Origin: Polyangiaceae bacterium
GTDB taxonomy: Bacteria; Myxococcota_A; Polyangia; Polyangiales; Polyangiaceae
DNA length: 44,277 nt
Assembly: GCA_023150915.1 (NCBI GenBank)
Contig: JAKLKA010000048.1
Coordinates: forward strand, 1-44,277
Direction: 5' to 3'
Shown here: piece after piece, positions 1 through 24,969 of the stretch
Layout of the letters: each line of letters begins with the position of its first letter
Numbering within the stretch: the first letter of the stretch is position 1
Notes under the pieces: model-generated
What the model was told of the DNA's origin: nothing
The model's input: only the letters and a program-made list of their open reading frames with translations
Database searches by the model: none
Translations under genes and position numbers: made by a program

Positions 1-294
1 TCCGCCTGCGCCGCTGCCACCGCCGCCCGGCGCGCCCCCGCTGCCGGCCCCCGCGGCCCCGCCGCTGGCCGGCGGCTCGTCGCCGTTGTCGCCACTGCCG
101 GCTGCACCCCCAGCAGCGCTGCCCCCGGCGCCCGGCTCGTTGCCCTCGGCGCCGCCCGTACCGGGATCGTCCGGGGGCTCTTGCTCGCCCGCGCCGACCA
201 CCGGCTTCACGTCCGGCGCGCTCACGCCTTCGTCACCGCTGCCGGCGGCACAGCCCAGGGCAAACACCGAGAAAACGAGCCACGCCTTGGTCAT
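1..294 (-). CDS. Gly/Ala-rich lipoprotein, partial (C-terminus outside window)
   Basis: The 98 codons visible begin with a lipoprotein signal peptide (hydrophobic LVFSVFALGC, lipobox Cys at about residue 15). A low-complexity stretch rich in Gly, Ala, Ser, Pro and acidic residues follows and runs to the window edge. Such linkers tether surface domains in myxobacterial lipoproteins, so any functional domain probably lies beyond position 1. The ATG overlaps the stop of the upstream NHL-like gene (ATGA, 291-294), which implies translational coupling as the third gene of an operon. The function cannot be told from the part seen. Confidence 0.75.
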   Translation of the reverse strand, partial: MTKAWLVFSVFALGCAAGSGDEGVSAPDVKPVVGAGEQEPPDDPGTGGAEGNEPGAGGSAAGGAAGSGDNGDEPPASGGAAGAGSGGAPGGGGSGAGG

Positions 295-14980: not shown

Positions 14981-15013
14981 AAAAGACGAAGGCCCCGCGT
15001 TGCCGCGAGGCCC
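14981..15013 (-). terminator. Rho-independent terminator for the Cys-rich gene (may work both ways)
   Basis: The stem 14991-14999 pairs with 15004-15012 (nine positions, one mismatch) around a TTGC loop. Read on the minus strand it is followed, after a short spacer, by CTTTTTG, a proper U-tract for transcripts of the gene at 15038-16330. On the plus strand, after nagZ, the hairpin is present but the trailing bases are only modestly T-rich. Confidence 0.75.
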
Positions 15014-15037
15014 TCGTTCATCCAGAGGCTTCTGGAA

Positions 15038-16330
15038 TCAGCCGGCGCCAGCCGAGCCGCTTGCCGAAGCGCTCGCCTTGACCGACACGTTCAGGCTGAC
15101 CGAAGCGTCCGCCTGAGCCTTGAGCGATGCCACGAGGCAGCCGCCGACCTTGAGCGCAGCCTGGCCGCCGCCCTTGACCGCCGCCTGCACGCCCTCGATC
15201 GAGGCCTTCACGTTGGCGATGGCGCCCTCGATGCGGGCCTTCATGCCGAGCGTGACCTTGAGCAGCGCCGGGAGGTTCTTCTCCAGCGCGCCCTTGAGCT
15301 TGGCCGACGCCTCGGCGTCCGCCGCACCCGAGAAGTTCACGCTGACCGAGGCCGGGGTGCACTCGAGCTTGGCGCTGACCTCAGCGTCGCAGTTCGCCTT
15401 GCACTCCGCGCTCATCTTCGGCGGAACGACCTCACCGGAGCACTTCGGCTCCTTGATCTCCACCGAGCAGCCGCCCGAGCACGAGCCTTCGCACTTGGCT
15501 TGGCCCTTGACCTCGCACGTAGCCGAGCACTTGCCCGAGCACTTGCCCTTGCAGGTGCCCTTGGCGTTCGCCGAGCACTTGCCTTCGCACTTGCCCTTGC
15601 AGGCGCCCTTGTTCTTGTCGCCGGCGGTGGAGGCCTGGCCGTCGCACTTGCCTTCGCAAGCGCCGCCGCAGGTGCCGCTGAAGTCAGCCTCGCAGCTGCC
15701 CTCGCACGAGCCGCCGCAGGTGCCTTCGCACTTGGCGCCGGCTTCGACGGTGCAACCGCCCTTGCACTCGCCCTCGCACTTGCCGCTGATCTCGCCGCCC
15801 TCGCACTTGACCTCGGCCTTGCCGCCCGAGACGCTCGCGTCGCAGGAGCCAGCGCACTCGGCCATGGCGTTCATCGAGGCAGAGCACTTCGGGGGAACGA
15901 CCTTGACGTCCAGCTTGCCGCTGATCTTCGCCTTGGCCTTGACCTCACCGAGGATCTTCACCGCAGCCTGGCAGGCGGCCTCGGCCTTCTTGCCGGGACC
16001 CTCTTCCTTGGCAGCGACGTCTTCGTCGCTCGCGCCGAGGTCCTTGGCGAGGTTGGCGCACGCGAGCGTGACGTCGCCCTCGACCTGAGCCGCGAGGTTC
16101 TTCAAGTTCGCGCCCGCAGCGAGCGCGCCCTTGATCTTGCCTTCCATCTCCGCCTGGAGGCCGAAGTTGGCCTTCATGATCGCGCTCGGATCACTGATGT
16201 CTGCCGGGCAGGACCCGGGGAGACCAGGCAGACCCGGCATGCCGCCACAGTTCATGAGCAGCGGAGCTGCAATCAGGGCCGCGGTGCCGAGCACCGGACC
16301 ACCCACCATGCGCCAACGATTACCGACCAT
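15038..16330 (-). CDS. Secreted Cys-rich protein with tandem CxxxC array
   Basis: This 430-residue secreted protein belongs to no family I can name. It has an N-terminal signal (hydrophobic 12-27; Cys28 in LLMNCGG is a possible but atypical lipobox). A helical region spans 43-135. The core at 149-324 has 28 cysteines, mostly spaced CxxxC with Gly and charged spacers (for example CEGTCGGSCEGSC). An amphipathic C-terminal helical region spans 335-400, and an Ala/Ser/Gly tail ends the protein. Two related modules starting VVPPK (about 144-180 and 301-331) flank the core. The start is secure: GGAGGAA lies nine bases before the ATG. Cys density suggests metal binding or disulfide-stabilised fibres; neither is proven. 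It has its own promoter region and terminator, so it is likely monocistronic. Confidence 0.85.
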   Translation of the reverse strand: MVGNRWRMVGGPVLGTAALIAAPLLMNCGGMPGLPGLPGSCPADISDPSAIMKANFGLQAEMEGKIKGALAAGANLKNLAAQVEGDVTLACANLAKDLGASDEDVAAKEEGPGKKAEAACQAAVKILGEVKAKAKISGKLDVKVVPPKCSASMNAMAECAGSCDASVSGGKAEVKCEGGEISGKCEGECKGGCTVEAGAKCEGTCGGSCEGSCEADFSGTCGGACEGKCDGQASTAGDKNKGACKGKCEGKCSANAKGTCKGKCSGKCSATCEVKGQAKCEGSCSGGCSVEIKEPKCSGEVVPPKMSAECKANCDAEVSAKLECTPASVSVNFSGAADAEASAKLKGALEKNLPALLKVTLGMKARIEGAIANVKASIEGVQAAVKGGGQAALKVGGCLVASLKAQADASVSLNVSVKASASASGSAGAG

Positions 16331-16589
16331 CTTCAATTCCTCCTCGGAAGCACTGCATTCCAAAGCCGCGGGGGACGCTACACCCAGAAGCCCACGCTTT
16401 GGAAGCGCGGTCTGAGGGTCCGGTGTCGCCCGCCTGGGTCTTTCCGCGAGCCCGTGCCGAGAGTCGGTTCGAGCCCATCCTGTGACGCTCGCCGGGCACA
16501 TCCCGGCTCACGTCGCCGGGCATATCGCCTCGATTTCGGGGAAAGTAAAGACTTTTGTTCAGTGCCGGCGGCGCCGGGCACGGCAAAAA
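16331..16589. promoter_or_regulatory. Promoter region of the Cys-rich protein gene
   Basis: This 259-bp gap precedes the Cys-rich gene (minus strand). It holds a strong Shine-Dalgarno at about 16339-16345 and an AT-richer patch at about 16543-16560 (minus-strand AAAAGTCTTTACTTT) unlike the surrounding DNA, where a promoter may lie. A CCGGC/GCCGG stem around 16564-16576 could be part of the 3' end of the tkt-DUF433 transcript. No defined operator was recognised. Confidence 0.45.
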
Positions 16590-21824: not shown

Positions 21825-22009
21825 GGCTACAATGGAAAAAGTAGCTCGAGCCCAGGCCAGGGACAAGCGGCACGGCGGCAAGCCGCTGTGAGCTCGCAGA
21901 CTTGCGCCCCGGCCCATGTGCCCGATTTCGCTCAGAGTCCTTGACCGTCCCCTGACAGACGAGCATAAGCGCGGAGCCATTTCGTCCGGGCGTGCCCGGG
22001 GATTCCTTC

Positions 22010-23263
22010 ATGAGCTACCGCGCCGTCAAGGGGATGAACGACATCCTGCCGGACGAAGTCGCCCGCTGGCACGCACTGGAGCGGGCCTTCCGGGAGACGG
22101 CCGAGCTCCATGGCTATGCCGAGATCCGCACGCCGGTGGTCGAGGGCACCGAGCTGTTCGTGCGCAGCATTGGCGAGACCACCGACGTGGTCGAGAAGGA
22201 GATGTACACCTTCTCGCACCACAGCGAGTCGCTCACCCTGCGCCCCGAAGGCACCGCGGGCGCGGCTCGGGCGTACGTGGAGCACAAGGCCCACGCCAAA
22301 GAGCCGGTCTCGCGCTGGTTCTACCTGGGCCCGATGTTCCGCGCCGAGCGCCCGCAGCGCGGGCGCTATCGCCAGTTCTACCAGGCCGGCTGCGAGATCT
22401 TCGGGGACCCGGGCCCCGCTTGCGACGCCGAAATGATCGACATGCTGGTGGGGCTGTTCCGCCGGCTGGGCGTGAGCGACGTGGTCGCGAACATCGGCAG
22501 CATCGGCGGCGCCGCCACGCGCGAGCGCTACCGTGGCGCGCTGCGCGAGTTCCTGAGCCCCAAGGCCGGCGAGCTCTCCGACCACGCACGGGCGCGGCTC
22601 GAGGTGAACCCGCTGCGCATTCTGGACTCGAAAGATCCGCGCGATCAGGCGGCCTGCCAGGGCGCCCCGCAGATCCTGGACGTCCTCGACGAGGCCGACC
22701 GGGCGCACTGGGAGACGCTGCTCGGGCACCTGGACGCGCTGGGCACGCCGTACGTGGTCGATCCGCTGCTGGTGCGGGGGCTCGACTACTACACCCGGAC
22801 GCTGTTCGAGCTGAAGAGCAGCGCGGGCGAGCTGGGCTCGCAGAACACCCTGTGCGGCGGGGGCCGCTACGACGACATGATCCGCGGCCTGGGCGGCCCC
22901 TCGGTGCCGGCCATCGGGTTCGCCATGGGGCTCGAGCGCATCTTGCTCGCGCTGGGGCCGATGGCCGCGCCGGCGCGCAAGACCTGTTCGATCGCGCCGA
23001 TGGGCACCCGAGCCGTCGGCAAGGCGCTCGAGCTCGGTCGGGCGCTGCGCGAGGCGGGCGTCGTGGCCGACGTGGACGGGCGCGGCAACTCGCTCAAGAG
23101 CATGCTGCGGCGGGCCGACGGTCTGGGCGCCCGCTTCTGCATCGTGCTCGGCGACGCCGAGCTGGAGCGCGGCGCGGTGCAGCTCAAGGACCTCGAGCGG
23201 CACACGCAAGAAGAGCTGCCGATCGGCGCGGTGGTGGCTCGCGTGGCAGGCGGTGGCGCGTGA
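22010..23263 (+). CDS. hisS: Histidyl-tRNA synthetase
   Basis: The 417-residue class II synthetase begins MSYRAVKGMNDILP. It shows EGTELFVRSIGETTDVV, motif 2 around LRPEGTAG and FYLGPMFRAERPQ, the histidine-specific VRGLDYYTRTLFE, and motif 3 GFAMGLERIL. A C-terminal anticodon-binding domain follows (about 325-417). It charges tRNA-His. ATG 22010 is preferred over an in-frame GTG at 21992. The stop overlaps the start of the downstream aromatic-repeat gene. Confidence 0.96.
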   Translation: MSYRAVKGMNDILPDEVARWHALERAFRETAELHGYAEIRTPVVEGTELFVRSIGETTDVVEKEMYTFSHHSESLTLRPEGTAGAARAYVEHKAHAKEPVSRWFYLGPMFRAERPQRGRYRQFYQAGCEIFGDPGPACDAEMIDMLVGLFRRLGVSDVVANIGSIGGAATRERYRGALREFLSPKAGELSDHARARLEVNPLRILDSKDPRDQAACQGAPQILDVLDEADRAHWETLLGHLDALGTPYVVDPLLVRGLDYYTRTLFELKSSAGELGSQNTLCGGGRYDDMIRGLGGPSVPAIGFAMGLERILLALGPMAAPARKTCSIAPMGTRAVGKALELGRALREAGVVADVDGRGNSLKSMLRRADGLGARFCIVLGDAELERGAVQLKDLERHTQEELPIGAVVARVAGGGA

Positions 23264-24969
23264 AGCGGTTCTTCTTGGTGCTCTGGGCGGTGCTGGCGCT
23301 GGCCCCGGCGGCCTGGGCGCAAGACCCCTTCGGGCCCGGCATTGCACCGATGGGCGGCGGCCAGCAGCCCAAGGCCAAGCCCAAGGCGCCGCCCCCCGGC
23401 ACGCCCGAGATGCACGCCGCGGGCGGCGGCGACTCGCTCTTGCCGCCGGGCAGCGAGCCCGGCCTGCCCAAAGACCCGCTCAAGATCGGCAAGAAGCTGA
23501 AGGCGCGGATCGGCACCAGCACCCAGCTCGATGATCTGGCCCAGGGCGGCACGGGCGAGACCCAGCGCGAGTTCTACGGCCTGTACTACTCCGAGAGGAA
23601 CGGCGGCTATCGCTTCCGCGTGGCGTTCCCGGCCTGGGCCGAGCGCACCCAGCCCTCGCGCACCGACTCGAAGGTGGTCGACCGCGCCTCGCTGTTCGGC
23701 GGCCTCTACTACAACCGCCGCAGCGCCGAGCGCGCCGACGACGTCCTGTTCCCGCTGGTCTGGAACATGCGCGACAAGACCGACGGCAGCCGCACCACCG
23801 TGGTCGGCCCGCTGGTGAACCGCGTGGCGCCGGGCGAGCGCGACAACTGGCTCGCCCCGCTGTACTTCACCGGCAAGCGCAAGCACGGCGGCTACACCAT
23901 CATCCCGCCGCTCTTCACCTATACGCGCACCAACCCCGACGGCCAGGGCGGCTTCAACCTGGTGGGCCCGATGTTCTGCTCGTGGAAGGGCGGGCAGAGC
24001 TGCGACCCGCGCACCGCCCACGATCTCGATTTCGGCGTCGCGCCCATCTATTTCTACGGCCAGAACGAGCAGAGCAAGTACGAGCTCATCCCCCCGCTGC
24101 TCCACTATTACAAGTACAACGACCGCACCGAGACCTACGTCAACCTGTGGGGCCCGTACTATCGCGAGCGCACGCAAGAGCGCGAGATCTTCCACTTGAT
24201 GCCCCTGTACTGGAGCATCTGGGGCCCGAACGAGCGGCACACCACCGTGCTGCCGTTCTTCCACTACGGGTACAAGGGCAACTCGTCGTTGTTCGTCAAC
24301 CCGTTCTACTTGCTCGCCAAGGGTGAAGAGGGCGAGAGCACCTTCGTGACCTGGGGCTATGCGCGGCACCGCGGCCGCACCAAGCTCGACATGATCACGC
24401 CGCTCTATTGGCACTACGAAGATCCGGACATCGGCCTCGACCAGAAGCTGTTCTTCCCGTTCCTGTACTCGCGCACCAGCCCGCGCGAATCCAACCAGGT
24501 CTTCTTCCCGTTCTGGGGGCACTTCGAGCGTTACGGCGTGAGCGAGACCACGTGGATCACGCCCTTCTTCCAGCACACCACCGATCTGCGCGGCTGGGAG
24601 ACCAACATCCACCCGATCCTCTACCTGGGTCGCAGCGGCCACAGCTCGCACACCGTGGTCGCGCCGTTCTTCTGGGACTTCGTCGGGCGCGAGTCCCGCG
24701 CCACGGTCGGCTTCCCGGTCTACTGGCGCTTCAGCGATCGCGACAGCGTGAGCCAGCTGGTCGGTAACGTTTACTACCACGAGAAGAAGCTCTCGAACGG
24801 CCTCGACTGGGAGATCCACATCTTCCCCGCGTTCAGCTATGGCGAGACGCCCGACGGCCACTGGTGGAACATCCTCTACGGTCTGGCCGGGTACACGCGT
24901 AAGGGCGACCTGGTGAAGATGCGGACCCTCTGGATCCCGATCAAGCTGAGCGGCGAAGAGAAAGACTGA
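23260..24969 (+). CDS. Secreted aromatic-repeat protein of unknown function
   Basis: The 569-residue product has a clear signal peptide (cleavage after AWAQ, about residue 21) and a Pro/Lys/Gly linker to about 105. From about 105 to 540 it consists of roughly 17-20 short degenerate repeats of 20-25 residues. Each centres on an aromatic strand such as LFPLVW, APLYF, MPLYWSIW, LPFFHYGY, TPLYWHYED, FFPFLYS or APFFWDF, and each is followed by a charged turn. The pattern suggests a beta-barrel or beta-solenoid exported to the periplasm or outer membrane. I recognise no named family. The GTG start overlaps the hisS stop, so expression is coupled to hisS. Confidence 0.85.
   Translation: MKRFFLVLWAVLALAPAAWAQDPFGPGIAPMGGGQQPKAKPKAPPPGTPEMHAAGGGDSLLPPGSEPGLPKDPLKIGKKLKARIGTSTQLDDLAQGGTGETQREFYGLYYSERNGGYRFRVAFPAWAERTQPSRTDSKVVDRASLFGGLYYNRRSAERADDVLFPLVWNMRDKTDGSRTTVVGPLVNRVAPGERDNWLAPLYFTGKRKHGGYTIIPPLFTYTRTNPDGQGGFNLVGPMFCSWKGGQSCDPRTAHDLDFGVAPIYFYGQNEQSKYELIPPLLHYYKYNDRTETYVNLWGPYYRERTQEREIFHLMPLYWSIWGPNERHTTVLPFFHYGYKGNSSLFVNPFYLLAKGEEGESTFVTWGYARHRGRTKLDMITPLYWHYEDPDIGLDQKLFFPFLYSRTSPRESNQVFFPFWGHFERYGVSETTWITPFFQHTTDLRGWETNIHPILYLGRSGHSSHTVVAPFFWDFVGRESRATVGFPVYWRFSDRDSVSQLVGNVYYHEKKLSNGLDWEIHIFPAFSYGETPDGHWWNILYGLAGYTRKGDLVKMRTLWIPIKLSGEEKD

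Follow-up and report, generated by a model that had tools for sequence, protein, structure and literature searches.

In the window, by which we mean the whole analysed stretch of 44,277 nucleotides from a Polyangiaceae bacterium, we identified a gene whose product carries 28 cysteines within C149–C324 (176 residues). All 27 spacings between consecutive array cysteines form a perfect palindrome, in which array cysteine i is partnered by residue 473-i; from C149 to C324 they read 10,4,13,9,4,4,8,4,4,4,8,4,4,15,4,4,8,4,4,4,8,4,4,9,13,4,10. The mirrored spacing is a feature of the family, and its two halves have changed together in evolution. We consider it rather probable that the gene encodes an outer-membrane lipoprotein that has a helical base and extends a long stalk in the form of an antiparallel hairpin, in which mirrored cysteines would be paired, most likely as disulfides. 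The protein has 33 cysteines in all, and the features of the gene and its product are listed in Table 1.

Table 1. Features of the array gene and its product in the window (residue numbers refer to the 430-residue protein)
Feature	Position	Strand	Basis
Whole gene, 430 aa	15038..16330	minus	ORF, ATG at 16330
Ribosome-binding site AGGAGG, 8 nt before ATG	16339..16344	minus	read from sequence
Intrinsic terminator-like hairpin	14986..15017	minus	14-pair stem then CTTTTTG
Predicted signal peptide, residues 1–27	16250..16330	minus	hydrophobic stretch before conserved Cys
Cys28, probable lipid-modified residue	16247..16249	minus	Cys conserved in aligned sequences
N-terminal helical base region (predicted), residues 41–137 (Cys41, 91, 120)	15920..16210	minus	AlphaFold helices, conserved Cys
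First VVPPK module, residues 144–176	15803..15901	minus	predicted helix carrying C159 and C163
Outgoing arm, C149–C229, 14 Cys	15644..15886	minus	spacings 10,4,13,9,4,4,8,4,4,4,8,4,4
Putative tip loop, residues 230–243	15602..15643	minus	central spacing variable in homologues and on tree
Returning arm, C244–C324, 14 Cys	15359..15601	minus	exact mirror of outgoing arm
Second VVPPK module, residues 301–324	15359..15430	minus	predicted helix carrying C310 and C314
C-terminal helical base region (predicted), residues 331–430 (Cys398)	15041..15340	minus	AlphaFold helices

The preliminary description had reported an array of 28 cysteines made mostly of CxxxC, and this array is real: 16 of its 27 steps are CxxxC, whereas 10,000 shufflings of the residues gave 2.5 such steps on average and never more than 9. 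By reading it as a CxxxC run between two modules, that description overlooked the palindrome, in which the information lies. Its two VVPPK motifs exist (residues 144–148 and 301–305), but the second precedes the last three cysteines and lies within the array, so the two do not bracket it. The mirrored pairs of the window protein number 14, whereas 20,000 shuffles of its spacings averaged 6.8 and reached 13 at most; as the spacing set is rich in fours, chance mirrors arise easily under this null and the homologues carry more weight. At the residue level, 14 of 74 non-cysteine positions are identical to their mirror position (shuffled mean 8.8, sd 2.6, maximum 19), a slight excess that places the symmetry in the cysteine spacing and not in copied sequence.

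We collected 159 distinct homologous ORFs at E 1e-6 from 176 loci, with identical sequences merged and near-identical ones kept. The arrays of 115 of them are exact palindromes, and most others deviate by one residue. An array framed by 10,4 and 4,10 is present in 146 homologues (106 exact palindromes); of the remaining 40 framed arrays, 30 have a single step that deviates by one residue, nine deviate slightly more, and one (L097) is an ORF-start artefact with an upstream in-frame cysteine, which leaves 145 usable framed homologues. Nine of the 13 homologues without this frame have a 14..14 frame instead and are exact palindromes without exception; the others are two arrays cut by contig ends (L050, L022), a near-mirrored array with an extra cysteine (L169) and a remote paralogue (L005). 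L050, L022, L005 and L097 were omitted from some counts. The number of cysteines between the outermost mirrored ones is even in 157 of the 159 homologues, and 7–17 pairs are exactly mirrored in 156. Conservation of the standalone mirrored rungs (steps of 9, 10 and 13) is no less strict than that of the CxxxC runs. The central spacing varies freely, from 8 to 18 in the 145 framed homologues, as expected of a tip loop. Loss of the cysteine pattern in homologues had been named beforehand as a ground for doubt; the aligned homologues keep it.

A search of the window's own genome and 96 relatives gave matches at E 1e-5 or better, each of which may be to any family member, in 91 of the 97 genomes, i.e., in 90 of the 96 relatives (57 of the 59 from the window's genus and family and 33 of the 37 from elsewhere in the order). 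The family is often present at several places per genome. Across the phylum, a profile search at E 1e-10 matched 82 of 377 genomes, all in the window's class. These comprised 60 of the 71 listed genomes of the window's order and 22 others of the class; the non-matching genomes of this sample are listed in part, and eight of the 11 misses among the listed order genomes belong to one genus (g52). A pattern scan of one genome per species (84,980 species), which reaches close relatives only, recovered 15 loci, all in records of Myxococcota, Myxococcales, Polyangia, Polyangiaceae or Sorangium. A plasmid search for the array family gave no match. The window, contig C271, lies in an 8.0-Mb genome that encodes two further clear members (C240, C7) and one remote member (C83). 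The latter, L005 (G000:C83:73822-74394), has 37 cysteines, an apparently ordinary signal peptide and no flanking domains that match; its spacings form a rough mirror, with 4,4,4,4,4 on either side of a 6, followed by near-equal steps.

The two arms were compared in 45 distinct arm pairs, with the middle step taken as the centre without optimisation and the two framing steps dropped; this centre rule builds in an equal number of cysteines per arm, but not step-by-step agreement. Step identity between an arm and its own partner is 0.937, compared with a mean of 0.52 and a maximum of 0.617 in 20,000 permutations of the right arms, and the arms are identical in 23 of the 45 distinct types versus at most six in the permutations. 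Direct tandem repetition of the array was rejected, with a step identity of 0.361 against 0.947 for the mirror, which fits better in 45 of 45 cases. We further mapped arm changes on a tree of the flanking domains (145 members), where counts stand without a shuffled control. Exact arm types changed 42 times on the left and 43 times on the right, with 35 same-branch changes, 24 of them to identical arms. When neighbouring lengths were merged into coarse types, there were 35 left and 32 right changes; each of the 32 right-arm changes fell on a branch where the left arm changes too, and 29 led to identical arms. On the same tree, the number of cysteines per arm changed 23 times and the length of the tip loop (central spacing) 40 times. 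Such coordinated changes would be difficult to account for if a cysteine could do without its mirror partner, and mirror pairing of the array cysteines is strongly supported. Residue covariation at the mirror register is suggestive at most, as offsets 0 and -4 tie for the highest of 21 values (0.444 and 0.445) with effective numbers of 12–23. The charge ratio is 1.13 at the mirror register and higher at five other register shifts; among direct mirrored pairs, minus-minus occurs 48 times versus 74.9 expected and minus-plus 89 times versus 75.6 expected.

Structure was predicted in two AlphaFold runs, one of the full protein and one of the array only, with an alignment of 15 sequences. Confidence was low (mean pLDDT 61 and 62); the N-terminal base region, with block means mostly of 72–89, was the best among the flanks. 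Conserved cysteines accompany both base regions, with Cys41, 91 and 120 present in 38–39 and Cys398 in 39 of 39 aligned sequences. The array-only model places 20 of the 28 array cysteines in strands, four in two helices and four in neither. Its helices occupy positions 9–19 and 164–176 of the segment, and the exact mirror of 9–19 is 166–176. Secondary structure in this model mirrors best at sums of 179–180 and 189 (expected 185), and in the full model the mirror peaks at the expected sum of 419 (57 of 81). Taken together, the models favour strands with a helical collar without settling the register. The middle residue of the CxxxC steps is glycine in 81% and alanine in 17% of 2408 steps in the homologues. 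Such a wealth of glycine fits a helix poorly; on a beta strand, cysteine would alternate on one face with the Gly/Ala that occupies 98% of the middles. Fold searches of the PDB with both models found nothing at E 0.001 or below and are uninformative at such model confidence.

The same models leave some room for a two-lobed globule or a head-to-head dimer, in which the mirrored spacing would reflect antiparallel packing around a pseudo-twofold axis. AlphaFold predicts the arms as a series of several short strands, covariation is also found at an offset of 4, and a second layer could pack against the Cys/Gly face. What speaks against such an arrangement is that the element that varies freely is the central spacing, as one tip loop would show. 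We regard this arrangement as unlikely, though deserving of serious consideration.

In the hairpin reading that we prefer, the N- and C-terminal segments would build a helical base near the membrane, and the chain between these flanks would run out, turn at the variable loop and return as one long antiparallel hairpin. Each outgoing cysteine would face its mirror partner (C149-C324, C159-C314, C163-C310 and so on to C229-C244), and the 14 pairs, most likely disulfides, would build a ladder and so hold the hairpin rigid as a stalk. Next to the base, a pair of CxxxC helices may associate in the manner of a helical hairpin. Above this collar, beta strands are the most likely form of the CxGxC arms, in which Cys would alternate with Gly/Ala on one face, and the stalk, with about 80 residues per arm, would measure roughly 20–27 nm if fully extended. 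In evolution, the rod would have grown or shrunk as the two arms acquired or lost rungs simultaneously. Its natural role could be that of a stiff envelope strut or a surface stalk. This comes close to the disulfide-built fibre or surface coat that had been among the possibilities raised at the outset; two rods may also interlock through their Cys/Gly faces to make a fibre.

The protein had been described as secreted, but it looks like a lipoprotein and not a freely secreted protein: Cys28 follows a hydrophobic stretch, and 37 of 39 aligned sequences have a cysteine at this position. A Gly/Pro linker follows Cys28 and leads to residues 41–137. For some loci (L001, L024 and others) the predicted signal-peptide start lies too far upstream, which leaves the array untouched. 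The lipid cysteine is preceded by G, A or S in 78 of the 142 members and by N or D in 48; the window protein has an unusual N before Cys28. Within this segment (residues 25–30, window 16241–16258), N or D before the cysteine occurs in much of the window's orthologue group, and a relaxed lipobox is possible. Outside the array, 106 of 142 members have three cysteines between the lipid cysteine and the array and one after it, as would be required for two additional disulfides in the base. An odd total beyond the lipid cysteine is seen in 30 of the 142 members and speaks against a strict rule by which all cysteines outside the array are paired.

Exported thiols would meet a probable VKOR-DsbA fusion and other DsbA-like proteins. 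VKOR and DsbA matches lie in one open frame of 424 aa (G000:C260:11650-12606), a probable fusion oxidase, and DsbA-domain matches in the window's genome number 14, several within the same frames. Seven tandem DsbA-domain matches in two long frames (804 and 685 aa; G000:C126:23500-27269) represent apparent multi-DsbA proteins.

Metal storage, also raised in the preliminary description, is not favoured. It would make the protein a metal-binding or storage lipoprotein with reduced mirrored cysteines, in which neighbouring CxxxC motifs on the two arms form four-thiolate sites. Copper storage proteins (Csp) are helical bundles that store Cu(I) with CXXXC motifs carried on their helices. The 28 cysteines in CxxxC runs share this motif with them, and a hairpin with mirrored cysteines could hold metals too. 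However, the standalone rungs are conserved as strictly as the runs, export of the protein is probable and its genome has VKOR-DsbA along with 14 DsbA matches, and Gly or Ala in nearly all CxxxC middles is ill suited to helices such as those of Csp. No metal-related family was found among the eight neighbouring ORFs scanned, and, with E allowed to rise to 10, neither Pfam nor NCBIfam gave a copper storage or metallothionein family for the window protein; Csp gave no family or PDB sequence match. Metal storage therefore appears distinctly unlikely. An envelope redox buffer or store of sacrificial thiols, whose mirrored pairs open and close reversibly, would be consistent with the closely spaced pairs and the many Dsb-like domains in the genome, but such a store needs pairs and not an exact register over 27 steps with compensating changes in two arms, and we consider it improbable.

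The preliminary description knew of no named family with such a layout, and rightly so: the family is widespread in Polyangia, yet no curated family exceeded its cut-off in the 15 members scanned. The window protein matches no Pfam or NCBIfam family at cut-off and nothing in PHROGs, and we found no description of the array family among the results listed from the open PMC literature. A PDB sequence search returned a phycocyanin chain (E 0.018) as its sole match. Bactofilin (PF04519) scores 24.1 bits at residues 330–395 of the window protein, below the gathering threshold of 27.9, and was rejected; it is weak in four of the 15 members, with a near miss of 27.3 bits in L012 at residues 214–285, and the differing places of these matches point to composition rather than descent. 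L18 and flotillin matches were likewise below cut-off and were dismissed.

Runs of CxxxC are shared with the Cxxx-repeat proteins of TIGR04114 (tSAM_targ_Cxxx), for which the array family scores below cut-off. Targets of this kind are expected to have a radical SAM gene nearby, and TIGR04115 is the maturase of Cxxx-repeat targets. Modification by a radical SAM enzyme, with thioether instead of disulfide cross-links, is highly improbable, since the weak TIGR04114 matches in two of the 15 members (L009 with 19.4 bits, E 0.001, a near miss; L015 with 15.8 bits) and that of the window protein (10.7 bits, E 0.6) all fall below the cut-off of 20, no radical-SAM family is present among the eight neighbouring ORFs scanned, and a phage array ORF (L178) beside a TIGR04115-like maturase is without a global mirror. 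That ORF lies in one of four viral loci (L177–L180) found in a scan of viral contigs (IMG/VR), which match query residues 125–264 at most. Their proteins contain very large CxxC/CxxxC arrays, with up to 104 cysteines in one ORF (L177), and none has a global mirror; the three viral array ORFs scanned gave no NCBIfam match. The ORF adjoining the array in L178 matches radical-SAM maturase models, with TIGR04115 the best at 316.9 bits (cut-off 350), and also an intein-containing radical-SAM model, and the same applies to L179 and L180.

The closest parallels in working principle are cystine-ladder hairpins and alpha-hairpinins; this would be a kinship of function, and we do not claim membership by descent. 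As in cystine-ladder hairpins, the array has mirror-related cysteines on two arms; its strands are predicted at low confidence and without a settled register. Tachyplesin has a CxxxC on each strand. Theta-defensins are described as a cystine ladder (PMC6327110) and tachyplesin-type beta-hairpin peptides as having two bridges in 17–18 residues (PMC13001179). Both consist of antiparallel strands closed by mirror-paired cysteines, as proposed for the array, but they are short, with two to three rungs, whereas 156 of the 159 array homologues have 7–17 mirrored pairs in a protein of about 400 residues. Alpha-hairpinins are described as two antiparallel CxxxC helices joined by Cys1-Cys4 and Cys2-Cys3 (PMC7191063), which is how C159/C163 would pair with C314/C310; this model suits no more than the basal collar, since the long arms are predicted strands with Gly/Ala in the CxxxC middle. 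Among myxobacterial surface proteins, TraA has a cysteine-rich region that has been proposed as a stalk (PMC6372800). It combines tandem cysteine-rich repeats of about 20 residues with a recognition domain, and the excerpted text of that source describes no mirror array (PMC6372800).

Chlamydial OmcA/OmcB and the exosporium proteins of Clostridioides are cysteine-rich components of a disulfide-stiffened outer layer. They would be analogous to the array protein in the way they work only, as their organisation differs. Beyond the single protein, we tentatively propose a new class of envelope rod, a single-polypeptide hairpin with up to 17 mirrored cysteine pairs that could serve as a length-tunable strut or spike throughout a bacterial class; we hold this wider claim less firmly than the hairpin reading of the window protein. 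If the cysteines pair as proposed, a disulfide-laddered hairpin would have been scaled up several-fold, and the ladder would be far longer than any cystine ladder known to us. It would also supply a rule for reading cysteine pairing from sequence and would tie cysteine spacing to envelope architecture in Polyangia. A sharp evolutionary question would follow, namely how two arms gain the same rung together.

The gene has its own start and end signals, as the preliminary description had proposed. The ribosome-binding site that it called excellent is indeed an AGGAGG at a distance of 8 nt from the ATG, and the terminator-like hairpin begins about 20 nt past the stop codon. The terminator scan by itself is not significant, with two sites found and 1.7 expected from shuffles. 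A search for a sigma-70-type promoter at the array gene found none. The eight neighbouring ORFs scanned encode PGM/PMM, an FtsX-like permease, a family-3 glycosidase (GH3), DUF433, transketolase, YceG and RuvX, and one is unmatched. We compared the window ORFs by tblastn with 14 related loci (up to 17 kb), several of which end early at contig ends, and recovered the glycosidase in seven, the DUF433 region in ten, transketolase in eight and YceG in nine. These recurring neighbours indicate that the array gene is an old, vertically kept resident of the locus. A long plus-strand ORF at 21901–24963 of the window, which has no Pfam match at E 1e-5, has tblastn matches in nine of the 14 related loci.
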